64,000 nucleotides of DNA from a virus. The notes below the pieces were generated by a model. That model had not been told where the DNA came from. It was given only the letters and a program-made list of their open reading frames with translations, and did not search any database. The first letter of the stretch is position 1. Each line of letters opens with the position of its first letter. Both the position numbers and the translations under genes were made by a program. This document shows, in pieces, positions 4,316 through 24,628 of this stretch. Location: IMG/VR virus record IMGVR_UViG_3300046794_000491, positions 1 to 64,000 of that record, one strand, 5' to 3'.

Positions 4316-5365
4316 TCACCACCAGGTGAAGGCGTCGCGCCAGTTGATTTCCACCCGGGGGCCGTCCCACTTCAGGTCGGATGACCGCGTGTAGGACAAG
4401 GTCGCCGACCAGTACCCGGGCGGGATGTACATCTCCGCCAGGCGCGGACTGTGCCGCGTCAGCTTGTCCGCCACCGATGACGTGGACGACCCCTTGGTGT
4501 GGGTCACCTGCCGCGACCACGGGCGGGGATCGATCGTGACGTAGTCGCCCGACGCGATGGTCATGGACAGCTGCACTGACCACAGGTCCGGCGTGAACGT
4601 GACCTTCGGGTTCTTGCACGGCCCGTGAATCACGATGTAGGGGAAGGTGGTGGTCTTGCCGAGCTGCGGGACGGTAGCCGACTTGTTCGATGGGTGCTGC
4701 CAGAACTCGGACAGGTCCCCCCTCCGGCCGGGGCGCGGCGGCCGCCCGTGCATGAGGTAGTCCCACAGCTCGACGTGCTTTTCCGTCTGGTCGTAGAACC
4801 GGTCATCGACTGCCACGAAATCGGCGACCACGGGCGTGTAGCCCTGCCTGGTGAGCCGGGAGTGGGAGACGGCGAACTTCCTCGGCCGCCCGTACAACTG
4901 CCGTGAGCGGCCCGCGGAGTGGTGTATCAGCCAGCCGACGCGGCCGCTCCTCGCGCGGACGGAGTCGCCCCGCCACACCTGCCGCAGCAGGTCCACGCCG
5001 TCAGAGCCCCACACCGCCGGCCCCTGATCCTGCTTCTTGTAGAGCGCCATCGCCATCTCGATGTCGGTCCAGTCGCCGACGCGTTCGCCGCGTGTCCACG
5101 GGCGCATCGGCCAGTGCCGGTCAACGGGCCCGTCCACGCCGTCCACGCCCAGTTCGAACGTCACAGTGGCGTTCCGCTGGTAGTCGCGGCCCAAGCGGAT
5201 GCCGTCCTCGCCCGGGAGCGTCGCGTCACCCACGTCGGCGTCGGCGAACGACACGTCGGGCTCCGTCAGGCAGTAGATGCCCGATGACTCACGGCCGAAA
5301 GTCAGTGAGGCGCCCGGGTAGTTGTCGTGCGGGGAGTAGCCGAGGAGCCATTCGCCGTCACGCAT
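4316..5365 (-). CDS. Distal tail protein-like minor tail protein
   Basis: The ATG at 5365 overlaps the tape measure stop by eight bases (ATGCGTGA) and has GGAGG nine bases upstream, so a longer frame reaching 5443 is rejected. The 349-residue product begins MRDGEWLLGYSPHDNYPG and is beta-rich. First gene after the tape measure is the usual place for the distal tail (Dit) protein that joins the tube to the tip complex; the assignment is positional. The message then enters a gap holding motif copy b. Confidence 0.6.
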   Translation of the reverse strand: MRDGEWLLGYSPHDNYPGASLTFGRESSGIYCLTEPDVSFADADVGDATLPGEDGIRLGRDYQRNATVTFELGVDGVDGPVDRHWPMRPWTRGERVGDWTDIEMAMALYKKQDQGPAVWGSDGVDLLRQVWRGDSVRARSGRVGWLIHHSAGRSRQLYGRPRKFAVSHSRLTRQGYTPVVADFVAVDDRFYDQTEKHVELWDYLMHGRPPRPGRRGDLSEFWQHPSNKSATVPQLGKTTTFPYIVIHGPCKNPKVTFTPDLWSVQLSMTIASGDYVTIDPRPWSRQVTHTKGSSTSSVADKLTRHSPRLAEMYIPPGYWSATLSYTRSSDLKWDGPRVEINWRDAFTWW

Positions 5366-8300
5366 TGGGGTCACCTCCCTGGCGTATGCGGCGCAGCTCA
5401 AACATTGCGTCCTCCAGCGCGGTTCCGGTCGATGCCACGGCACCGATGTTCAGGTTGAGGTCGCCACCGACGAGCGCACCGGCCCCCTGCGGGACGGAGG
5501 CGCGTGGGGCGACGGATCGGGTGGTGGCGCGGACCATGGACAGGGCGCCGTTGGCGAAGGAGCGCAGCGCGCCTTGGCCGGGGTAGACGACCGTGCCGCC
5601 GAACATCTCGGCGACCTGGTCGAGGATCTCCTTGCTGCGCTTCCGCTTGGATTTTCCGAGCGGGACGTAGGCCTCGCCCCCGGTCTCGTCCTCCGCCCAC
5701 AGCCGCCATTCGCCCGCCTTCGCAATCTGGGCGATGTGGTTCTCGGCGCCGTTGGCGAAGGCGCGGATGCGGCTGCCCACGGCGCGGATGCCGCCCTTGG
5801 CGTAGCGGACGATGTTGCCGTTCGCGTGCGTCGAGACCACGGACGGCTTGCCCTGCTCGCTGTACTTGACGGTGACGTGCACGGTCCGGCCGGTGAGGTT
5901 GTTGATCTTCCCCTGGATCGCCTGCACCTGCTGGATGGGCGTCTTGTTCGGCGCGGTGATCTTCACCGTCTTGCCGTGCGACCCGTCCACCGTCTTGATC
6001 TTGTAACCGAGATCCTTCAGCATCGAAAGCGCGGTCTTCGTAGGCGTCTTGACCTCGATCGACTTGCCCTTGGGCAGGCCCGCGACCTTCTGCTGGACGC
6101 TCTTCAGGTCGCCGGCGGCCTGCTTGATGATCGCCTGGACCGTGACCTTCTTTTTATCCGGCGCGGCCGCGATGTCGTCAACGAGGGCGGCGATGTCGAC
6201 GCGAGACTTGCCGGTCGGGGCGGTGACGACGACGTTCTTCGAGCCGGGGATCCGCTGGAACGAGTAGCCCAACAGCTCCAGCTGGGTCCGCGCCTCAAGC
6301 GTCGGAGACTTGATCTGGATGCCCTTGCCCGCCGGGATGCTCTCCAGCTGCGTACGCAGCCCCAGGATCTCGGCCGTGGCCTTCGGCATGCCCTCCGTGG
6401 TGATCAGCGTGCTGATCTGGTCGGGGATGAATCCCATCTGGTCCACCAAGGCCTTCGCCTGGTCCTTGGGGATGTTGAACGCGGCGGCGAGCTCCAGCGC
6501 CTTCTGCCGGGCATCCTTGGCCGCGTCACGGCTGGTGTTCATCGCCTCCGACAGAGGGATCAGGTGGTTGTCGGCGGCCTCGCGCGCGCTCGTGGAGACC
6601 TGGAGCATTCCGTCCCGCAGATCCTCAAGCTGCTGGTTGAGCTGCTGGCCGTTCTTCGTGGACGTGTTGACCAGCTTGTCGTTGCCGACCAGGGACTTGC
6701 CCCAGCCATCGGAGTGCTTGATGTTGTCCTTCATGGCGTCGTCGACCTGGAGCATCGTCTGGTTCAGCTTCGCGGTGGCGTCGTGGATCGACATGGTGTT
6801 GCCCTTGAGGGAGTCAAGGGCCGCCCTGAGCGCCTGAACCCGCTCGTCGGAGGTCTTCGTCTTGTCGTTGAAGGCTGCGATGGCGCCGCCGAGACGGGTG
6901 TAGGAGTCGACGCCCACGACGCCGCTGTCCTTCATGGCGGCCGCGGCTTCCTTGCTGTCGCGCCGCGACTTGGCCAACTCACCGTTGACGGAGCCGAGCG
7001 CGTCGGCCGCAGCCTTGTACTTCTTGCCCACCTCGTCGGGCACGAGGACGGATGCCTTGTCGCCCGCGATGTTCTTGTACTCCATGTGGGCGTTCATCAG
7101 GTCCTGCATCTTCTTGCGCAGGTCACCGACACTGCCGTCCTGCTCCAGGTAGGCGTCGGTGAGCTCCTTGAGCGACACACCCGCATTGCGCATGACGTCG
7201 ACCAGGCGCCCCTTGCCATCGGCCAACTGGGTGTCCTGGAGAAGCTGCACCGCCTGCGCGCGAACGTTCGCGTCGATGACGCCGTTGGAGCCTGCGAGGG
7301 CCTTCGCCAGGGAATCGACGCGCTCACGGTGGGCGGCCGCCGCCCGGGCGTTCTGCTCCTGCTTCGCGGCGAGCAGACCGAGCCCGATGGTGACGCCGGT
7401 GATGGCGATGCCGAGCGGCCCGCCGAGGGCGCCCGTCAGGCCGCCAAGGGCGCGGACGGTTGCCCCGTTCGCGGCGCGGATACCGCGCATGGCGCCCGAC
7501 AGCCGGCCACCCTGCGACGCGGCACCCTGGTAGGCCAAGCCGATGCGCTGCCATCCGGAGATCTGCGCACCCATCACGCCGGTGCCGAGTTGGCCGCGCA
7601 GTGTCGCGCTCATCCCGCGCAGGGAGGTACCGGCGCCACTCACGGCGATACCGAGGCGCCCCAGCATGCTCGTCACGCCGCTGATGACCTTCAGGGCGAG
7701 CATCGTTCCCAGGAATGTCGCCAGGACTGTGTTCGCCCCGGGGATGACGCTCATGAGTTTGTTGAAGACGTTCAGGAAGCCGCTGAAGGCTGCCATCAGC
7801 ACGCCGAGCCCGCTGCCCGCTTGGGACAGGTGCCCGATGGCCTCCGCCAGGTTGGAGACGAGGCTGATCAGTGCGGGGCCGATGTTGTGGCCCATGGCGC
7901 TGAAGAACGTGCCGAGGGCGGGCCCGAGTTCGGTGCGGATCTGCCGGATCAGGTCCCTGACCCCGCCGTCCTTGGCGGCCCGGCCGAAGGCCCGGAAGAA
8001 GTCGCCGACGAGCATGTTCAGCTCGTGGAACGTGCCCGCCGAGTCCTCGTAGAACTGCTTCATGGCCGCTTGGCCCGGCTTACTGTGCGCCCACCGGTCG
8101 AAGCGGGCCATCGTGCCTTCAAGGCCGTCGAGGAGGCTGTTGCCGACGTCCATACCGGCCTTGCCCATCCCGCCGAAGCCCTTGATCATGTGGAGCGTCG
8201 CGCGGCCCAGCTGGTCCGCTTTCTGCCCGGCGTGGTCGAGGAACTTCGCCAGCGAGCCCGTCTCCCGGCCCGCCTGGATGGAAGCCCGCATCCACTGCGT

Positions 8301-10493
8301 CAGCTTCTCGGCGCCCGCGCCCACCCGTTCCACGAACGGGCCGCTGGCGACCAGGAAGTCGAGGGAGGCGTGGCCCAGGTTCGCGAGCCCGTCGGTCACG
8401 TGGCCGATGACGGTGCTGCTGGTGGCCGCGATGGTCTTGAAGTCCCGGCGGAAAACGCCTGTCTGCATGAACTCCGCACCGCGGTGGGCGAGCTCGCCCA
8501 TCTGCCCGGCCGCGTCACCGAGGGTGCTTTGCAGGAGCGGGAAGACGGAGTTCGCCAGGGGCTTGATGTCGTCGGTGACCTTGGAGAAGAACCGGTCGGA
8601 GACGGCCATCTTGACCTTGCTCCAGGCCCCTTGCAGCTGGGAGACCGCGGCGACCGCCTTGCGCGCCGACGGGGCGAGCTGCTCCATCGCCTGCTTCAGC
8701 TTCTGCTGCTGCGCTGCGGTGACCTTCCCGTCGGCAGCCATAATCCGCTGCACTTGCAGCTGCTCTTTGAGAGCCTGCCCGAAGCCGGAGAAGGCGACCT
8801 TCGTGCCGATGAACGCCGTGCCGATGGCGGTGACCACGCCGGGGATCGCGCCGAGGACACCGACGGCCGGCGCGGCGGCAGACACCAGCGCGAACAGCCC
8901 CTCCACATACGCACTGAGCGCCGCGGCCGCAGGCTGGCCAAGCGCGATGATCGACCCGAACAGCGCCGCCCGCCAGCGACGGCGGCCGCCACGGCGGTTC
9001 ACGTCGGGGTTCACCGGGATGTTGATCGACAGGGTGTCGGCGATGGCCTGGCCGACGCGGAGCACGCCGCGCAGGCCGCGGGTGAACAGGCTGCCGCCCT
9101 GTGCGCTGACGCGGGCACGCACGACGGAGGTCGCGGCGCGAGAGGCGCGGCCGACGACGGTGGCCACGCCCCGCGTCAGGTCCCGGACCGCGCGCGCGGC
9201 CGGAGTGACGGCGACCCGGACGGCGCTGCGGGTGTCGCGTGCAGCGGTCGCGGTGATGCGGCGCAGGTCCCGGGCCAGGCCCGTGACGGCCGTCCGGGCG
9301 GGCTCGGTGAGCACACGCACCCGGGCGGCGACGGCGTTACCGAACGGAGAGACAGCCCGCCGAATGCTGCGGCCGAAATCGAGGACGGCGTTGCGGCTGG
9401 AGTCCGCGGCCATCCGCACACCGACCACGAACTGGGCGCGGTAGCGGGTCGCCATCCGCCGTACGGAGGTGCCGAAGTCGCGGGCGGCCTGGCGGGACAT
9501 GTCCGCGCTGACCCGGATACGGACGCCGAAGTCGCGCAGCGGCCCGAAGACCAGGCCGTCCAGCCAGCCGGGACCACCGAGGCGGCCGCCGAACGCGGTC
9601 CTGAGCGCGTCGGCTGCTTCCTCGCCGATGCGGCGCATCTGGCGCCCGATGGCCCGGATATCGATGCTGGCGATCCGTAGCCCGGCGATCCGGATGCGGG
9701 TCACCAGGGCCCGGCTGTTCGTAGTCAGGAAGTGGCGGGCCTCCTCGGCGAAGCCGCGGATCGCGTCGCGGGTGTTGGCCACGCCGACCCGCACCTTGGC
9801 GGCGAGGCTGCGTACGCGCGAGCCCTGGTTGCCGAGCATCGTCCAAAACGCCCGGGAGAATGCCTGCCCGGTGTCGCGGCCGGCGGTGACCGCGATCCGG
9901 CCCATCTCCCGTACGAACGTCCTCAGCCCGCCACGAGTCGGCTCAAGGGCGTTCCGTGTGACGACGCGGAGCTGCCGCAGCGCCACCGCGACGATGCCGG
10001 ACAGGGAGCGGCCGAACGAGCGCTCGGAGTCCCGGGCAGGGGCGACCCGTACGCGCGCGGTGCTCGCCTCGGGGTCGCGTGCCACGCGGGTGAGCAGACC
10101 CCGCAGGGATCCGCGGAGCCTGCCCACCAAGCGGCCGAGCCCACCGCCGCCACCGCTGCGGGTGCGGCCGTTGTCGTCGCTGTCGGCAAGCCGCACCGGC
10201 AGGTTGACCGACGCGCCTTGGGCGGCCCCGTCCGTCAGGTCGGACACTTCGCGGCGCAGCCGCTCCCGGTCCTCTTCGACCTTGATGCGGACCTTCGCCG
10301 TGACGCCCTTGGAGGCCTCTTCGACTGCCTGCTTCAGCTGCTTGCGCAGGCCCTTGCTGTCGACCTTGATGGCGATCTTTGCGGCCACGCCCTCGGCGGC
10401 GGCCTCCACCTTCGTGCGCAGCTCTCGGGCAAAGCCTTCGAGGCTGGCGACGACGGTGACTTCAAGGCGCCCGGCCTGCATCCCCTCAGCCAC
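5358..10493 (-). CDS. Tape measure protein
   Basis: A 1711-residue protein, the longest tail gene, placed directly after the frameshifted chaperones. It starts at GTG 10493, overlapping the chaperone stop by eight bases (GTGGCTGA). The N-terminal third is Arg-rich with repeated heptad-like segments. A hydrophobic stretch follows around residues 515-565 (AYVEGLFALVSAAAPAVG and following), with others near TVLATFLGTMLALKV. The rest is mostly helical with Lys/Asp-rich coiled segments. Length and hydrophobic patches are standard for siphovirus tape measures, which set tail length and enter the cell envelope at infection. At about 0.15 nm per residue the tail would be roughly 250 nm, an estimate from the family rule. 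Confidence 0.92.
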   Translation of the reverse strand: MAEGMQAGRLEVTVVASLEGFARELRTKVEAAAEGVAAKIAIKVDSKGLRKQLKQAVEEASKGVTAKVRIKVEEDRERLRREVSDLTDGAAQGASVNLPVRLADSDDNGRTRSGGGGGLGRLVGRLRGSLRGLLTRVARDPEASTARVRVAPARDSERSFGRSLSGIVAVALRQLRVVTRNALEPTRGGLRTFVREMGRIAVTAGRDTGQAFSRAFWTMLGNQGSRVRSLAAKVRVGVANTRDAIRGFAEEARHFLTTNSRALVTRIRIAGLRIASIDIRAIGRQMRRIGEEAADALRTAFGGRLGGPGWLDGLVFGPLRDFGVRIRVSADMSRQAARDFGTSVRRMATRYRAQFVVGVRMAADSSRNAVLDFGRSIRRAVSPFGNAVAARVRVLTEPARTAVTGLARDLRRITATAARDTRSAVRVAVTPAARAVRDLTRGVATVVGRASRAATSVVRARVSAQGGSLFTRGLRGVLRVGQAIADTLSINIPVNPDVNRRGGRRRWRAALFGSIIALGQPAAAALSAYVEGLFALVSAAAPAVGVLGAIPGVVTAIGTAFIGTKVAFSGFGQALKEQLQVQRIMAADGKVTAAQQQKLKQAMEQLAPSARKAVAAVSQLQGAWSKVKMAVSDRFFSKVTDDIKPLANSVFPLLQSTLGDAAGQMGELAHRGAEFMQTGVFRRDFKTIAATSSTVIGHVTDGLANLGHASLDFLVASGPFVERVGAGAEKLTQWMRASIQAGRETGSLAKFLDHAGQKADQLGRATLHMIKGFGGMGKAGMDVGNSLLDGLEGTMARFDRWAHSKPGQAAMKQFYEDSAGTFHELNMLVGDFFRAFGRAAKDGGVRDLIRQIRTELGPALGTFFSAMGHNIGPALISLVSNLAEAIGHLSQAGSGLGVLMAAFSGFLNVFNKLMSVIPGANTVLATFLGTMLALKVISGVTSMLGRLGIAVSGAGTSLRGMSATLRGQLGTGVMGAQISGWQRIGLAYQGAASQGGRLSGAMRGIRAANGATVRALGGLTGALGGPLGIAITGVTIGLGLLAAKQEQNARAAAAHRERVDSLAKALAGSNGVIDANVRAQAVQLLQDTQLADGKGRLVDVMRNAGVSLKELTDAYLEQDGSVGDLRKKMQDLMNAHMEYKNIAGDKASVLVPDEVGKKYKAAADALGSVNGELAKSRRDSKEAAAAMKDSGVVGVDSYTRLGGAIAAFNDKTKTSDERVQALRAALDSLKGNTMSIHDATAKLNQTMLQVDDAMKDNIKHSDGWGKSLVGNDKLVNTSTKNGQQLNQQLEDLRDGMLQVSTSAREAADNHLIPLSEAMNTSRDAAKDARQKALELAAAFNIPKDQAKALVDQMGFIPDQISTLITTEGMPKATAEILGLRTQLESIPAGKGIQIKSPTLEARTQLELLGYSFQRIPGSKNVVVTAPTGKSRVDIAALVDDIAAAPDKKKVTVQAIIKQAAGDLKSVQQKVAGLPKGKSIEVKTPTKTALSMLKDLGYKIKTVDGSHGKTVKITAPNKTPIQQVQAIQGKINNLTGRTVHVTVKYSEQGKPSVVSTHANGNIVRYAKGGIRAVGSRIRAFANGAENHIAQIAKAGEWRLWAEDETGGEAYVPLGKSKRKRSKEILDQVAEMFGGTVVYPGQGALRSFANGALSMVRATTRSVAPRASVPQGAGALVGGDLNLNIGAVASTGTALEDAMFELRRIRQGGDPNA

Positions 10494-11315
10494 TGACTTG
10501 CACCATTCCTCTCCTGGCAGCGGCCGCCAACATCTTGCGGTGACCGGTCATGGGCGGCGGCTGCTGCTGCGCGCGCGGGCTGTTCCCCTGGGGAACAGCG
10601 GCGGCCTCGGTGAGGGCCGACGGTCGGTTCACCGTCAGCGGTTCACGGCGGCGCCTGTCAGCGGCGAGCAGCGACACTTCCTCGATGAGCTGCGCCAGGA
10701 GTTCGTTGAGCACGGTCCAGCCGCCAACCGGCTGGGACATGACCCGGGAGCCCTCGGGCAGACCTTCAAGGAGGGCACTCAGCCGGCGGACTCCGATGAA
10801 TCCGGGCTGTCCTGGCCGGAGCCAGATGCGTCGGGCGTCGAGCTGGTGGTAGCGGGAGAGGTCGGACTCGACGTCGCTCCAGCGTTCGCGGAGGAGCCGG
10901 CCAACCCGAAGAGCTTTCCCAGATCCACGGCGTAGACCTGAGCGAGCGCCTTGGTCAGGCGGACGTAGTCGCCGATCGAGGGCCGGATCGCCTTGAACGC
11001 CCTGAACTCTTCCGAGCCGAGGAGGACGGCGTAGATCTCCTTGACCGCGGCCAGGAACTCCCGCGGCAGGCTGGCCCGGCGGAAGAACAGGTCGATGACC
11101 TCGGCAGTGGAGATCTCGCCGGAGGAGTCGATGACCTCACCGAGGAGACCGACCAGATCGAGCTCTTCGGACAGCAGGGGGTCCAGCGCGTCGGCCGGGA
11201 GCTCGGCCGGGAACAGGAACATCTCTCCGCGCAGGAGAACGGTGATGCCGTCGGGGTGCTGCACCTCGCGCCGCTCGGCGTCGAGGTCGATGTGGTATGT
11301 CGAGGTGGCGGTCAT
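10486..11315 (-). CDS. Tail assembly chaperone, -1 frameshift product (GT type)
   Basis: After the slippery heptamer at 10914-10920 the -1 frame stays open to a TGA at 10486. It encodes a new C-terminus beginning ALRVGRLLRERWSDVESDL and containing SRYHQLDARRIW. A W-x-x-[VI]-E-x-D-[LF] segment is typical of the T half of G/GT chaperone pairs. The frameshifted tail includes AVPQGNSP, encoded by a 17-bp palindrome, and ends MVQVSG where it overlaps the tape measure start. GT chaperones bind the tape measure protein and recruit tail-tube subunits during assembly. Frameshift efficiency cannot be read from sequence. Confidence 0.88.
10581..10597. promoter_or_regulatory. 17-bp palindrome (candidate parS), centre base T
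   Basis: TGTTCCCCTGGGGAACA, perfect except for its central base, inside the frameshifted chaperone extension where it encodes VPQGNS. Candidate ParB-binding site. Confidence 0.7.
10779..11315 (-). CDS. Tail assembly chaperone, unshifted product (G type)
   Basis: A 178-residue protein starting at ATG 11315 behind GGGAGG. Longer frames reaching 11444 would run through a palindromic site and lack a ribosome site. It begins MTATSTYHIDLDAERREVQ, has a helical core (LGEVIDSSGEISTAEVIDLF) and ends in a Ser/Thr/Pro-rich tail that is read only when no frameshift occurs. Position between tail tube and tape measure, and the canonical slippery site inside it, identify the G chaperone. Confidence 0.9.
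   Translation of the reverse strand: MTATSTYHIDLDAERREVQHPDGITVLLRGEMFLFPAELPADALDPLLSEELDLVGLLGEVIDSSGEISTAEVIDLFFRRASLPREFLAAVKEIYAVLLGSEEFRAFKAIRPSIGDYVRLTKALAQVYAVDLGKLFGLAGSSANAGATSSPTSPATTSSTPDASGSGQDSPDSSESAG
10914..10920 (-). other. Programmed -1 ribosomal frameshift site GGGAAAG
   Basis: Minus strand reads G GGA AAG in the G-chaperone frame (after GAT CTG), an X-XXY-YYZ heptamer. Slipping back one base gives GGG AAA GCT and enters the open frame of the T domain. This is the canonical device of siphovirus tail chaperones. Confidence 0.9.
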
Positions 11316-11370
11316 GGCTCGGGTCCTCCCGGTGGGTGTCGAAGCACCGGGAACGTAGGGAGGCCCGTCG

Positions 11371-11385
11371 GCTTGCGTCTCGGGC
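11371..11385 (-). promoter_or_regulatory. Late-gene gap motif, copy m
   Basis: Minus strand GCCCGAGACGCAAGC, full consensus, 55 bases before the chaperone ATG at 11315. Confidence 0.6.
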
Positions 11386-11401
11386 ACGCGGCCGCCGGAG
11401 G

Positions 11402-11418
11402 TGTTCCCCGGGGGAACA
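11402..11418. promoter_or_regulatory. 17-bp palindrome (candidate parS/operator) upstream of parB
   Basis: TGTTCCCCGGGGGAACA lies in the divergent gap between the chaperone gene (minus) and parB (plus), about 94 bases before the parB GTG. This position suits autoregulation as well as partition. Confidence 0.7.
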
Positions 11419-11511
11419 CGCGGCTGGATTCCGGGATGTGGCAACAGGCCCCCCGGGGCTGGCGGCTAGCCTCTATCCCGACCACATCTCTGACCTATCG
11501 GAAGGACGTCA

Positions 11512-12939
11512 GTGGCACTGAAGAGGGTCACGAAGCAGACGAAGGCGGGCAGCGTGCCCCCGCCAGCCGCGTCAGTGGAGTCCGAAGCGCCGAAGGAGCC
11601 CGAGACCCCCAAGTTCTTCGAGCTGAGCACCGAGAACGAGGGCGACGCGCTGGACATCAAGCTCAGCGACATCACGCCGAACCCGTTCAACGACAGGGAC
11701 ATCGGCGATGTGACTCAGCTCGCCGAGAGCATCGAACAGGATGACCTGCTCCAGGACATCACCGTGATGCACACCTCCGCCTTCGCGGAGCACTGGCCCA
11801 AGGAGGCCGAGGGCATCACCACCAAGTACGTCATCGCCTTCGGTGAGCGCAGGTGGCGTGCCCATCAACACCTGGGCAGGGCAACGATCGCCGCGGTGCT
11901 CAAGAACTCGGCGGCGCCGAAGATCCGCCGCGTGCTGTTCGCGGAGAACTACCACCGCAAACAGCTCTCCCCAGTCGAGGAGGCGCGCAAGTTCCAGCTC
12001 CTTCACGTAGAGGAAGGCATGAGTTACCGGGAGATCGTGAAGGAGCTCAAGCTGACCGGCCCCAACTACGTCTCCCGGCGGATGGAACTGCTGGAACTCC
12101 CGCCCGCGCTGCAAGAGATCGTCGGCACCGATGACGGGCCCGGCGTCACCCTGGCCCGCAGCATCAAGGGCCGGTTCGACGATCCGGACGAGCAACTCCG
12201 GGCGTGGGAGCTCATCAGGGACGAGGGCCTGAACATCGGCCAGGCCGTGGAGCGGATCCATGCCGCGGCGCCTGTTCCCCCGGGGAACACCCCCGCCGGC
12301 GGCCAGGACGAGACGGAGTCTGTTCCCCCGGGGAACACGGTGGACAGCTCCGAGGAGCAGCGGCCGTCTGTTCCCCAGGGGAACAGCCCCGGGAAGGAAT
12401 CCGGCGGTGACGCTCCCAAGCCCGCCGCGAAGTCCTCGTCGGCCGGGGGGAAGCCAGCGGCCGCAGACCGTCACGCGGCCCAGCGGAACAACGCCGCCGC
12501 GGACCGGGACTCTGCGTGCCGCCAACTGATCGCAGCCGACACCGTGCTCTCGCCCGAGCAGCACGATGCCCTGTTCGGGCGGACGCTGCTGGCGCCGATG
12601 CAGCAAGGCCCTGCTCGGACCCGCGCGCACAAGTGGCTGCGGGACGCCGAGACAGCAGGGTTCAACATCAACGACACCGACAGCTACTTTGAGGCTGTGC
12701 TGTCCTCCGGACAGACGGATCTCGTCAACCGGGTCGCCCTCGCTACGGCTCTCGCCGCCGGTGAGGTCCGGGCGCGCGACGGCCGCCGGCAGTGGGACAG
12801 GACCGACGCTGAACACGTCCGGCTCCTCATCGACGCCACTGGCTACGTGCCCGAGACGGCGTGGGAACGCGAGCAGCTCGTCAAGTTCGGCGTGACCTTC
12901 AACAGCGCTGACGACCCCGACCCCGACGCCATCCACTGA
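11512..12939 (+). CDS. parB: ParB/KorB-like partition protein
   Basis: GTG start at 11512 preceded by GGAAGGA. The 475-residue protein has a Lys/Pro-rich head, a ParB N-terminal domain (about 50-130) with the GERRWR CTP-binding motif at 111-116, then ENYHRKQLSPVEEA at 145-158 and a helix-turn-helix region around 168-190 (SYREIVKELKL, YVSRRMELL). ParB proteins load on parS DNA as CTP-dependent clamps and stimulate ParA. Residues 254-300 hold three copies of VPPGNT/VPQGNS spaced 16 residues apart, encoded by palindromes in the gene itself. An Ala/Ser-rich linker leads to an unfamiliar C-terminal domain of about 150 residues. parA follows after 14 bases. The parB-parA order is the reverse of the usual one. 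Confidence 0.88.
   Translation: MALKRVTKQTKAGSVPPPAASVESEAPKEPETPKFFELSTENEGDALDIKLSDITPNPFNDRDIGDVTQLAESIEQDDLLQDITVMHTSAFAEHWPKEAEGITTKYVIAFGERRWRAHQHLGRATIAAVLKNSAAPKIRRVLFAENYHRKQLSPVEEARKFQLLHVEEGMSYREIVKELKLTGPNYVSRRMELLELPPALQEIVGTDDGPGVTLARSIKGRFDDPDEQLRAWELIRDEGLNIGQAVERIHAAAPVPPGNTPAGGQDETESVPPGNTVDSSEEQRPSVPQGNSPGKESGGDAPKPAAKSSSAGGKPAAADRHAAQRNNAAADRDSACRQLIAADTVLSPEQHDALFGRTLLAPMQQGPARTRAHKWLRDAETAGFNINDTDSYFEAVLSSGQTDLVNRVALATALAAGEVRARDGRRQWDRTDAEHVRLLIDATGYVPETAWEREQLVKFGVTFNSADDPDPDAIH
12273..12385. promoter_or_regulatory. Three phased 17-bp palindromes inside parB (candidate parS array)
   Basis: Sites at 12273-12289, 12321-12337 and 12369-12385 (centre bases C, C, A) have centres exactly 48 bp apart. 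All are read in the same frame as VPPGNT, VPPGNT and VPQGNS. Confidence 0.75.
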
Positions 12940-12953
12940 ACGGGAGACCCCGC

Positions 12954-13883
12954 ATGTCCAAGACGACACTGGCTCGACACCGCCGCGAGCTCCGGCCAAA
13001 CGGACGGAACTGGCCGATGCTCCTGGCCGCGTTCATCATCACCGGTGGCAGCGCCAAGACGAGCAGCATCGTCATGCTCGGCGTGACGCTTGCCCTCCGC
13101 GGCTACAAGGTGCGCGTGTTCGACTTCGACCACCAGCGCAGCGCCAGCCACATCCTGGGCGCCATGGATGAACTGCCCGCCGGTCACGGCACCATCTGGG
13201 AGCTCATGCACGGCGCTTCGCTGGAGGAGTGCAGCGTTCCGGCCCGCTACGTCCTGACGCCTGCCGACAAGGAGGCCAAGACGGCTGCGGTGTACGAAGA
13301 GATCGAAGGCCTGCACATCGTGCCCGGCTCACGGGACGTGAAGAACTTCGACACCGAGTCCGCGCAGGACGGAATGATGCTCACGTGGTTCCGTGAGCTC
13401 TGCGACGACTACGACGGCGATGACGATGTGTGGCTGCTGGACCTGCCTGCCTCGTTGTCCAAGCTCGTGGTGTCCGCGCTCATCCCCTTCCAGGAGGAGG
13501 ACGAGATCGTGCCGCCGGTCCTGGTCACCAGCAAGGAAGAGACGGACTTGAAGGCGACGTTCGAGGAGTTGGCGGAGATGCGCAAGCAGCAGAACCAGCG
13601 CTCGCGGACCCGGAAGACTGCGCCCACCATCCGGCACATCCTCATGTGCGGGACGCCCACTCCGGGCCGCCCTGACTCCGAGGGCGAGCTGACTGTGGAG
13701 TCCATGAAGGAGACCTATGACGAGCACTTCGAGCTGCACTCCGTCCGCTGGAGTGGCGTGATCCGGCAGCAGCACCGCCGCCAGGCGCCGGTGCACGCCT
13801 TCGGCAACCGGAACGCGGCCCCCATCGAGGACTACAACAAGATCGCCACGGCGCTCGGGTTCGTGGAACCCGACCCGGCGTAG
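12954..13883 (+). CDS. parA: ParA-like partition ATPase
   Basis: The 309-residue protein has a deviant Walker A at residues 31-38 (GGSAKTSS, where the family usually has KGGxGKTT), a KVRVFDFDHQRSAS segment matching the A' region, and VWLLDLPAS as Walker B. ParA ATPases form gradients on nucleoid DNA that move ParB-bound plasmids. Loss of the first signature lysine (T30 in its place) is notable, because in the deviant Walker A family it normally contacts the partner's ATP. The gene follows parB by 14 bases and ends one base before another palindrome. Alternative: a MinD/Soj relative with another cargo. Confidence 0.85.
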   Translation: MSKTTLARHRRELRPNGRNWPMLLAAFIITGGSAKTSSIVMLGVTLALRGYKVRVFDFDHQRSASHILGAMDELPAGHGTIWELMHGASLEECSVPARYVLTPADKEAKTAAVYEEIEGLHIVPGSRDVKNFDTESAQDGMMLTWFRELCDDYDGDDDVWLLDLPASLSKLVVSALIPFQEEDEIVPPVLVTSKEETDLKATFEELAEMRKQQNQRSRTRKTAPTIRHILMCGTPTPGRPDSEGELTVESMKETYDEHFELHSVRWSGVIRQQHRRQAPVHAFGNRNAAPIEDYNKIATALGFVEPDPA

Positions 13884-13884
13884 C

Positions 13885-13901
13885 TGTTCCCCTGGGGAAC
13901 A
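13885..13901. promoter_or_regulatory. 17-bp palindrome (candidate parS) just after parA
   Basis: TGTTCCCCTGGGGAACA begins one base after the parA stop, in non-coding DNA. Confidence 0.72.
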
Positions 13902-13904
13902 CCA

Positions 13905-13957
13905 AAGGCCCGTACCGGTCGCGGAAGTCGTCATCTCCCGCGCACGGTACGGGCCTT
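13905..13957. terminator. Bidirectional terminator between parA and the tail tube gene
   Basis: A perfect 13-bp stem (13905-13917 with 13945-13957, AAGGCCCGTACCG) with a 27-base loop separates convergent genes. The stem ends TT/AA on both sides, so it can act in either direction. Confidence 0.75.
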
Positions 13958-13975
13958 GGGCTGTACGGCCACAGG

Positions 13976-14566
13976 TTACGCGGCCGGGGCGAACGCCGGG
14001 TCGTCGGTCAGCAGGTACCAGGCGTCGGCGTTGTCGCCGCCCTGTACGGCCAGACGCAGCGGAAGCACGGCCTCCTTCGCCTTCTGGAGGTCGTTCTGCA
14101 CGCCCTCCATCTGCATGGCGCGCGGCACCACGTACCGGTAGTGCTTGCCGCCGTCGATGACCTCGATGATGGCGGCGATCTCGCTGCGGCCGCCCACGCG
14201 CGGAGGCGTGAACTTGTAGTGCGTCCCTGCCGGCGGTCCGGTAACGGCGATGGTGGTGATCTCGCCGCCGCCGAAGACGGCCTGGAAGTTGTCGCCGTTC
14301 CACTGCTGGAGGTCCACCTCGATGGTGGCCGAGTCGGAGGTCTGGAACGTGCGGGACGGGTAGTCGCTCTGAGCGGACTTCACCTGCTCGAACTGCGGCT
14401 CTTCGTTGAATTTCAAACTATCTTCGGTGGTCAGGCCGACCGAGCGCCAGCCCGTGCCCAGGGCGACGGTGGCGTCTGCCGGGGCGGCGGTGCCGACGGG
14501 CGCCAGCCAGACCAGGGTGCGGGCAGGGACGACGATCTGCGTAGAGTTGGTGGTTTCGCCAGCCAT
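13976..14566 (-). CDS. Major tail (tube) protein
   Basis: A 196-residue beta-rich protein starting MAGETTNSTQIVVPARTLVW with GGAG ten bases before the ATG. It contains SVGLTTEDSLKFNEEPQFEQ and VDLQQWNGDNFQAVFGGG, features common in actinophage tail-tube proteins, whose subunits stack as hexamers. Position after the tail terminator and, apart from the inserted parBA, before the chaperones supports this. Confidence 0.85.
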   Translation of the reverse strand: MAGETTNSTQIVVPARTLVWLAPVGTAAPADATVALGTGWRSVGLTTEDSLKFNEEPQFEQVKSAQSDYPSRTFQTSDSATIEVDLQQWNGDNFQAVFGGGEITTIAVTGPPAGTHYKFTPPRVGGRSEIAAIIEVIDGGKHYRYVVPRAMQMEGVQNDLQKAKEAVLPLRLAVQGGDNADAWYLLTDDPAFAPAA

Positions 14567-15598: not shown

Positions 15599-15650
15599 TG
15601 TTCCCCGGGGGAACAGGCGCCGTGCTCCCGGGGTGTTCCCCGGGGGAACA
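15599..15650. promoter_or_regulatory. Two 17-bp palindromes (candidate parS pair) in an intergenic gap
   Basis: Sites 15599-15615 and 15634-15650, both with centre G, lie 35 bp apart centre to centre in the gap between two connector-region genes, just upstream of motif copy d. Confidence 0.72.
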
Positions 15651-22310: not shown

Positions 22311-24575
22311 TCAGAGCGCGAGTTCTGCGAGGGCCGCCTTCACTTCCGCGGCGTCCAGACGCACCTTGTCCTGGTCGTCGGGGTCGCCATCGGGCTCAGC
22401 GTCGGGCCCGTCGCCGGAGTCGCCGCCGCCGCTGGTGTTCCCCGGGGGAACAGCCGTGTCCGAGCCGCCCTCGGTGTCGGCATAGGGGATCTCCGCGTCG
22501 TCCTGCGAGCCCTCGCCGCTGTCGCTGCCGTCCCCTTCGTCGGCCATGTCGTCGTAGGCGCCGGGGTCCTCCTCGTCGTCCCAGCCGTCGGTGAGGGTGT
22601 ACTTCCCCAGCCAGTCGCCGCCCGAGCCGTCGCCGCCGTGCATCTCGTCCGTCGGCATCCCCTTCTTCGACAGGGTGTCGAGGAGCTTGCCGATGGTGGG
22701 CTTCAGGTACTCAAGGTGCTCCGGCCCGGCGTCGGAGACCTGGATCAGTGCCGTGGCGTCCTCCAGTGCCCGCCCGGTCGGCTTGATGTACCGCTCCTGG
22801 GTGGCTTCGTCGTCGTCCGCTTCCCGCTCCATGCCGGATACGGGGACGGCCACGGTCGTGAGCTCCACACGGACCGGCACGCCGAGGTCGATGTCGCGGC
22901 CGGACGCGGTGTACGGAATGGCGTAGGTCTCCGTCTCCCCGTCGTCGTAGCGGGTGACGATGACGCTGTCCGGATAGGTCGCCTCCACCGTCACGAAGCA
23001 GTCGACCGGCTGCGTCGGGCCTGACTGATCGTCGTCCCGGTCGGGCGAGAACAGCGTGCGAGCGGCCTTGCCGAGCTGGTCGCGGAGCTGCTCGAAGGAG
23101 TAGGGCATGGGGGTGCTCATGATGCGCTCCGGAAGGTGTAGAGGCTCAGCGGCGGACTTGGCTTCGAGGACGATCCGCGCGGCCGACTTGCGCTCTGCGG
23201 CCGCGTGGGTGGCGGGGTAGATCCCCATGGCGTCGTGATGGCGCAGGTTGCAGTAGCCCTTGGCGTCCTGCGGGCTCATGTGCTTGCCAGCGATGGCAAC
23301 GCACCGGTCGAAGTCGCCGGGCGTTCCCCACGCGATATCCGAGGCGCCTTCGCCGTGGACGTACCAGTCACGCAGCTGCTCGGCGTCACCCTTGTTCTTG
23401 TCCCACCCGCCGGAGGCCTTCGCTTCCAGCACGATCCGCGCGGCCGACTTCCCCTCCATCGGAGGCGACGGCGGGCCCGCGGGCTCGTCGGTCGGCGCCT
23501 CTCCGAGGGGAACCTCGAACTCGTCCTCGCCGCGCACGCAGTGCAGTTGAGTGAACGTCACCGGTGTCGCCGGCACCGGATCCAGGTCGGGCATGTTGTA
23601 GCCGAGGGTGATGTGCGGGGTGAACCCGTGGTTGTCGCGCACGTGGTCGGAGTAGACCGACGTGGACAGCGCCTGCGCGACCCGCTGCCGCAGCTCCGCC
23701 AGGCCCGGCACGTCCACCGGCACCCACGTGGGTACTCCGTCCCCGCTGTCGGGGAAGCGGCCGATGCCGCCGATGCTGCCTGCCAGGGGCCCGGTGTCGT
23801 TCACGGCAGGGGTGACGATGTCGCGGAGGTCATCCGGGTGCCCGCCGAGGTCTTCCACGTCGCCGAGGTAGGCGAGCGTGATGTGCAGGTTCTCGGCCGG
23901 CGTGCCGTCGGGGTGAGCGATCTGCTCGGCCACGTCCTGCGGGACCTTCAGCGCGACCATCACGCCGCGGCCGGTCTGCTGTTCGGCGGCCTTCAGCTCG
24001 ACGGCCGACCAGGTGGCCTTACGTTCCAGGTCCGCGGCGCGCTGCCTGCTGGCTGCCTTCACTTCGATGCTGCGGGTCATCGGGTGCGCGCCATGCAGCA
24101 CGGGACTGACCTCGTACAGGTCGAGATCGTGGATGATGCGTACGCCGTCGTGCCGCTTGGAGGCGCCGCCGGGCGGGACCTTGAAGCCGATGGAGAACTG
24201 CGCCTCGCCGTTCTCGTGCCACTGCCGGACCTGTTCGTAAGCGTCGCGGCCGCGGGTGGTGCGCAGGTTGTACTGGACGGCGGCGACCAGAGCCCCGGCT
24301 TCCTGGGGCCACACTGAGCCGCCCGGGATCGTGGCGAACCGAGGGTCGCCGGGCATCCACTCCTCGATCGAGAGGACGCTGCCGACCGGTTCCTTCCAGT
24401 CGTGGTGCCATACCGGCTTCACGCGGCGCTTGGTCAGGGTGCGGGTGAACGCCCCGGGGATGATGAGGTCTTCGACATCGTCCACCACGCCCGTGACGGC
24501 GTAGATGGCGCGGACGATGCCCTTTCCGCCGCGGGTGCGGCGCAGACTTGCGGTCTTGGGCGGCGGGCTCGGCAC
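22311..24575 (-). CDS. Prohead protease polyprotein with 2H phosphoesterase domain
   Basis: GTG 24575 has AGGAGGA seven bases upstream; GTG 24611 lacks one. The 754-residue product has several modules (numbering from 24575): an HK97 prohead protease, about 18-168, with likely catalytic H57/H58 in VWHHDW and S128 in AQFSIGF; a 2H phosphoesterase, about 200-360, with H231-I-T233 in LHITLAYLG and H321-I-T323 in PHITLGY; a small His/Cys module, about 387-462 (WGTPGDFDRC, GYCNLRHH); a beta-rich module, about 487-590; and a very acidic tail. E-x-K/(A,S) sequences follow residues 173, 195, 386, 473 and 746, between modules, and KSAARIVLEAK occurs twice. Self-processing into separate products is inferred. 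The acidic tail could serve as scaffold. Confidence 0.85.
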   Translation of the reverse strand: MPSPPPKTASLRRTRGGKGIVRAIYAVTGVVDDVEDLIIPGAFTRTLTKRRVKPVWHHDWKEPVGSVLSIEEWMPGDPRFATIPGGSVWPQEAGALVAAVQYNLRTTRGRDAYEQVRQWHENGEAQFSIGFKVPPGGASKRHDGVRIIHDLDLYEVSPVLHGAHPMTRSIEVKAASRQRAADLERKATWSAVELKAAEQQTGRGVMVALKVPQDVAEQIAHPDGTPAENLHITLAYLGDVEDLGGHPDDLRDIVTPAVNDTGPLAGSIGGIGRFPDSGDGVPTWVPVDVPGLAELRQRVAQALSTSVYSDHVRDNHGFTPHITLGYNMPDLDPVPATPVTFTQLHCVRGEDEFEVPLGEAPTDEPAGPPSPPMEGKSAARIVLEAKASGGWDKNKGDAEQLRDWYVHGEGASDIAWGTPGDFDRCVAIAGKHMSPQDAKGYCNLRHHDAMGIYPATHAAAERKSAARIVLEAKSAAEPLHLPERIMSTPMPYSFEQLRDQLGKAARTLFSPDRDDDQSGPTQPVDCFVTVEATYPDSVIVTRYDDGETETYAIPYTASGRDIDLGVPVRVELTTVAVPVSGMEREADDDEATQERYIKPTGRALEDATALIQVSDAGPEHLEYLKPTIGKLLDTLSKKGMPTDEMHGGDGSGGDWLGKYTLTDGWDDEEDPGAYDDMADEGDGSDSGEGSQDDAEIPYADTEGGSDTAVPPGNTSGGGDSGDGPDAEPDGDPDDQDKVRLDAAEVKAALAELAL
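22436..22452. promoter_or_regulatory. 17-bp palindrome (candidate parS), distal copy
   Basis: TGTTCCCCGGGGGAACA lies inside the protease polyprotein gene, encoding VPPGNT in the acidic tail, 6.8 kb from the nearest other copy. Confidence 0.68.
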
Positions 24576-24628
24576 GGCGGGTTCCTCCTGGGGCTTCTTG
24601 GTGGACCGCACCGTGCCCCCGCCAGGTG

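Follow-up and report, generated by a model that had tools for sequence, protein, structure and literature searches.

A 17-bp odd palindrome, TGTTCCCC-N-GGGGAACA, recurs nine times in the 64,000-nucleotide stretch of viral DNA analysed here (the window), and three of its copies lie in frame within the linker-coding region of the adjacent parB gene. We consider it very likely from sequence evidence that this palindrome is a parS, the loading site of the neighbouring ParB. Computation here established the sites themselves, DNA-level selection on them, the conservation of their positions and their co-divergence with ParB. The window comprises positions 1 to 64,000, most of the 65,975-base virus record IMGVR_UViG_3300046794_000491. 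Its head and tail genes are similar to those of Streptomyces plasmid records of 125-133 kb that bear phage head and tail genes, nearly all of which are circular; this likeness makes it most likely that the window is part of a Streptomyces phage-plasmid, and the phage probably lives as a plasmid. Both parB and parA sit among the late structural genes; the neighbouring tail-tube gene (13976-14566, minus strand) and tape-measure gene (5358-10493, minus strand, named from its size, place and counterparts) are read from the other strand.

The 475 aa protein encoded by parB (11512..12939, plus strand) comprises ParB_N and HTH_ParB domains, a linker and a C-terminal domain starting at about residue 317. 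Its CTPase-type ParB_N domain (residues 49-146) matches PF02195 with an E-value of 1.9e-8 and 34.7 bits against a cut-off of 26.3, and its HTH_ParB domain (residues 151-248) matches PF17762 with 22.4 bits against a cut-off of 22.6 in one search and with 25.8 bits, above the cut-off, in a second. The CTPase-type motifs GERRWRA and ENYHRKQLSPVEEA align with Noc structures, Spo0J being also among the matches, and an ENxxRxxLSPxEEA motif is present besides GERRWRA. The interdomain linker (codons 251-316; 12262..12459, plus strand) contains three of the palindromes, and residues 252-316 are predicted to be coil by an AlphaFold model built from three sequences, which has low overall confidence (mean pLDDT 45) and was used for predicted coil only. 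Gene order is parB then parA, with the adjoining parA (12954..13883, plus strand) encoding a 309 aa ParA-type ATPase that matches AAA_31 (E 1.5e-11), CbiA (E 2e-8) and a ParA-like PHROG. Judged by its domains, the neighbouring ParA and the repeated palindromes, the locus is in all likelihood a type-I HTH-ParB ParABS partition system. The ParA (12954-13883) reads TGGSAKTS where the deviant Walker A motif KGGxGKT stands, with the signature lysine replaced; GGSAKT is invariant in the five ParAs compared, and the signature lysine is absent from this ParA family.

Both arms of the palindrome are perfect in each of the nine copies, and the centre base is free, being A, C, G or T. A scan of the window allowing one to three mismatches returned no degenerate copies. 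Chance expectation in the window at up to three mismatches is 0.26 copies, against nine observed, and none of 100 shuffled sequences reached nine. All copies are confined to 12 kb around parB-parA. The three in the parB linker, TGTTCCCC C GGGGAACA at 12273..12289 (codons 254-260) and 12321..12337 and TGTTCCCC A GGGGAACA at 12369..12385, have their centres (12281, 12329 and 12377) spaced at exactly 48 bp and share one reading frame, which gives P-VPPGN-T, S-VPPGN-T and S-VPQGN-S, as an earlier note on this DNA had described. The remaining six copies are spread over 10.6-22.5 kb. One lies about 0.1 kb upstream of parB (11402..11418), a place kept in relatives, and another right after the parA stop codon (13885..13901), a place kept in several relatives. 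The copy at 10581..10597 falls in an open frame of the minus strand, a short way upstream of the tape-measure gene, and a copy is present at this place in all related phage-plasmids compared. Two copies 35 bp apart (15599..15615 and 15634..15650) lie in or between head and tail genes, and the last (22436..22452) lies near the 3' end of a minus-strand gene (22311-24611) encoding a fusion of a prohead protease domain with a 2'-5' RNA ligase-like domain. The earlier note had placed the same peptide at 10581 and 22436, and in minus-strand frames these copies indeed read VPQGNS and VPPGNT; those at 11402, 13885, 15599 and 15634 were missing from its list. The array it singled out is real but belongs to a wider constellation of sites surrounding parB-parA. 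Most window copies are within or adjoining parB-parA, or inside genes.

The codons of the in-gene copies are improbable given the peptide that they encode. With the linker peptide fixed and the codon usage of neighbouring genes applied, the chance of drawing exactly the codons seen is 1.4e-4 to 2.6e-4 per site; among 200,000 recoded linkers, 62 contained one site and none contained two. In the phage-plasmid branch, Val is encoded by GTT at 11/11 in-gene sites versus 10/133 positions elsewhere in the same parB genes, and Gly by GGG at 11/11 versus 22/139. The last base of the codon preceding the site is T for the window, G001 and G002 (half-site TGTT...) and at one of two S. pseudogriseolus sites, and C for MBT27, pSCL2 and WZ-12 (CGTT...); even this silent position therefore tracks each genome's version of the palindrome. 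Among relatives the peptide changes while the palindrome and its place remain, VPPGN in the window being replaced by VSNGN in pSCL2 and WZ-12, FHAGK in CLI2509, FPAGN in pSLE2 and VLKEN in the locus L052. Homologues thus display the opposite of a conserved peptide with unconserved DNA arms: the arms change together, the peptide follows and the palindrome stays. Selection acts at the DNA level on the in-gene palindromes, in agreement with the earlier proposal that the DNA site rather than the peptide is selected, and codon choice together with co-divergence supports its further suggestion of a double role, with one stretch serving as linker of the protein and as a likely target of ParB. In CLI2509 and S. 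albidoflavus plasmids (L039 4697, L042 4694) the in-gene copy has GCGGGA; a perfect palindrome there would create an in-frame TGA stop, and GCGGGA keeps the frame open.

With linker borders taken from the alignment, the linker between the HTH and C-terminal domains makes up about 15% (8-19%) of the gene and holds 21 of 24 in-gene sites; the other three lie within ~20 codons of the gene's end, and folded domains are free of sites. Neither the related genomes and lineages nor these site counts are independent samples. In most lineages the first in-gene site is found directly past the last HTH helix, and in the distant parA-parB loci L045, L046, L048 and L049 palindromes also lie beyond the HTH domain. 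The branch comprising NBC_00536, BV286, G011 and G012 has no in-gene site, and the array is therefore dispensable. Linker copies of the window branch, as well as the copies at 10581 and 22436, share the phase x-V-P-x-G-N or an equivalent. The alternative phases of the palindrome would read C-S-P-G-E or F-P-x-G-T, and another phase is used in a few distant plasmids (the second site of pSLE2, NBC_01304); the V-P-x-G-N frame is probably the one that yields a harmless flexible peptide. The 48-bp phasing reported previously is exact in the window but unconserved in relatives, where spacings of 45/45, 51, 87, 69+48 and 63 bp occur. These are mostly multiples of three, so that reading frame is kept and distance is not. 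Helical phasing at 48 bp was rejected on these grounds, and the regular spacing at 48 bp and 45 bp would most simply be explained by the reading frame.

Every ParB lineage carries a palindrome of its own, on which most copies within a genome agree, with G001 mixing T and C at the outer pair. The half-site is TGTTCCCC in the window, G001, G002, S. pseudogriseolus and BV286, CGTTCCCC in MBT27, TGTTCCCA in NBC_00536, CGTTTCCA in pSCL2 and WZ-12, and TGTTGC(A/T)C in L053, and L052 has a looser half-site, GTTCNC, in six copies versus 0.05 expected; more distant plasmids carry GTTTCAC-GC-GTGAAAC, TTTCCCGCGGGAAA, TATTCCG-N-CGGAATA and others. Relatives with diverged ParB proteins have symmetrically altered palindromes upstream of parB, in the parB linker and after parA, and many members conserve places at about -0.95 kb, at -0.1 kb, at codon ~250 and just past parA. 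The ParB of L052 has the recognition helix VAGR instead of VSRR, paired with the looser palindrome GTTCNCNNNGNGAAC, whose copies at 1469, 1520, 3797, 8894, 9748 and 10652 form the same constellation of places, including one in parB near codon 255 read VLKEN. Ser188 as a one-residue explanation of half-site base 8 was ruled out by G012, which combines Ser with A8. Residue 186, which is Tyr or His with C8 and Gln or Thr with A8, offers only a lead as a possible determinant of this base.

Across the records compared, the palindrome follows ParB rather than the phage backbone. Four records with the same backbone (W06-W09: S. zaomyceticus, 11x1, S. anulatus and NBC_01220) encode no relative of the window ParB, and GTTCCCNNNGGGAAC has no copy in these whole records; a fifth, NBC_01278, encodes a distant ParB and carries a different palindrome, TCTTTACG-N-CGTAAAGA. 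Conversely, pSCL2, WZ-12, CLI2509 and pSLE2 share nothing but parB-parA with the window over the compared stretches, and carry related palindromes around and within parB. A search of IMG/VR with the NBC_00536 variant of the palindrome matched 111 stretches; among the 80 matches listed, at least two copies were found in two contigs only, both of which encode an NBC_00536-like ParB.

This double dissociation decides against the palindromes being scattered operators or stoperators of a phage immunity repressor that fall in parB by chance. Such a repressor would account for a number of perfect palindromes scattered through the genome of a phage that is presumably temperate, and one of them does lie upstream of parB, where promoters are likely; however, the palindrome varies along with ParB, occurs also on linear plasmids whose compared stretches share parB-parA alone with the window, is missing from same-backbone phage-plasmids without a window-type ParB, and lies mostly within or beside parB-parA or inside genes. 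We therefore rejected this reading as highly improbable. Even less credible, to the point of being practically negligible, is that the VPxGN peptide is selected, for instance as a linker motif or interaction site, with the palindrome as a by-product. The same peptide does occur three times in ParB and in two other proteins, but for this peptide the codons used at the sites are improbable, the third position of the codon in front (T in the window and G001; C in MBT27, pSCL2 and WZ-12) follows the genome's outer pair, and the palindrome is kept with VSNGN, FHAGK, FPAGN or VLKEN, or in copies outside genes. Improbable codons and peptide turnover led us to reject this explanation as well.

If the palindromes are parS sites, ParB would nucleate at their cluster; its dimers would bind them through the HTH domain, close as CTP-dependent clamps and, by analogy with the family, slide over the surrounding kilobases; ParA would then move the ParB-DNA complex, and the prophage plasmid would be inherited. 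We infer binding, clamp loading and partition in this way, together with an advantage of linkage, whereby a parS within parB would keep the centromere with its reader when the cassette is exchanged. ParB might instead bind the sites mainly to regulate its own operon, parB-parA, or to silence late genes, with partition as a lesser role. Such a role would suit the copies upstream of parB, in parB and past parA, and those in late virion genes, which are read from the other strand; ParB-type proteins such as KorB repress transcription. Yet plasmids that have no virion genes close to the locus show this layout too, and at least three identical sites around the operon match the partition loci of SCP1 (PMC13245405); we regard a mainly regulatory role as unlikely. 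That ParB is also a silencer, with clamps loaded in parB and the virion genes repressing the late operon in the prophage state, is a doubtful addition to partition, and it is similarly doubtful that partition and late-gene control would be one system. The site constellation extends from the tail genes to the head genes, which are encoded opposite to parB-parA.

A parS within the gene of its own reader has precedents. B. subtilis spo0J carries parS within the gene, where the site is read V-P-R-E-T in the linker; it resembles the window in having parS inside the ParB gene, in the linker, and differs in being chromosomal and in having a 16-bp even palindrome without a central base, with a single in-gene copy and the others near oriC. 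The canonical chromosomal parS is a 16-bp site, TGTTTCACGTGAAACA, without spacer, unlike the 17-bp odd palindrome with a free centre base described here; the window half-site has G1 as in parS, C6 as in the Noc site NBS (PMC7383237) and one extra central base. On the S. coelicolor plasmid SCP1, parS1 lies inside parB1 and was recoded synonymously by its authors (PMC13245405, NAR 2026); ParABS1 and ParABS2 have three identical inverted repeats per parAB operon, of 13 bp and 15-19 bp, and specificity between closely similar parS is strict (PMC13245405). SCP2 ParATS has an 18-bp parS within parT, the gene for its centromere-binding protein (PMC12260392, PNAS 2025), and the in-gene parS of both plasmids were established by ChIP-seq and BLI (PMC13245405, PMC12260392). 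Like SCP1, the window has a type-I HTH-ParB on a Streptomyces extrachromosomal replicon and identical repeats around the operon, at least one inside parB, a layout found here in the copies at 11402, 12273/12321/12369 and 13885. SCP1, as published, is in contrast a conjugative linear plasmid with one in-parB1 site and no reported in-frame array of three, and the window differs further in its parB-parA order, 17-bp site and copies in virion genes. SCP2 shares with the window a parS inside the coding sequence of the centromere-binding protein, but ParT has no CTPase domain and one site, whereas the window ParB retains ParB_N and CTPase-type motifs. The linear plasmids pSCL2 (S. clavuligerus, L024) and WZ-12 (L025) encode ParBs 32-33% identical to that of the window, and their palindrome, CGTTTCCA N TGGAAACG, lies upstream of parB as well as twice or three times in the linker, where the frame is that of the window; they have no virion genes near the locus and a changed half-site, and their sites are known from sequence alone. 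In-gene parS are thus already known from SCP1 and SCP2; what is new is the triple array in one frame, the presence of copies in virion genes and the co-divergence across the family.

If this reading is correct, ParB linker codons would be a recurrent home of the centromere in Streptomyces plasmids and phage-plasmids, and the segregation module would carry its own target within its reader, swappable as one unit. The ParB/parS family would form a natural series in which half-site and recognition helix change together, suited to tests of how centromere specificity evolves. A parB of this kind expressed elsewhere would bring parS along and titrate ParB, a titration that the SCP1 authors had to avoid.

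One relative of the window complicates the association of palindrome and ParB. G003 is about 80% identical to the window in DNA over the structural genes and has, at the par position, a different ParA and a protein that lacks any Pfam ParB domain, in a cassette with three copies of its own 27-base palindrome; no relative of the window ParB was found in this record, which may be a fragment. Its structural genes nevertheless contain two perfect window-type sites (L065 1513 and 12796; G003:C1:48012 and 59295), and three more with one mismatch occur at G003 6025, 16186 and 32260; simulated sequence of G003 length had none at zero or one mismatch. These sites may be decaying relics of a par cassette swap, or could possibly be served by another reader. 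The shorter records G004-G007 have one or two sites each, with no ParB detected. Exchange of the par cassette at this backbone position fits the linkage idea, although it is no proof of it. Within the late operon of these related phage-plasmids the par locus is a hotspot of exchange (window 10779-14566; L065 2522-4323; L036 25591-27425; L034 29848-32001; and L035, L037 and L038), occupied by a window-type parB-parA, by a distant ParAB with TCTTTACG-N-CGTAAAGA, by nothing, or by either of two cassettes of ParA and a non-Pfam partner with CGTGTCTC...GAGACACG palindromes.
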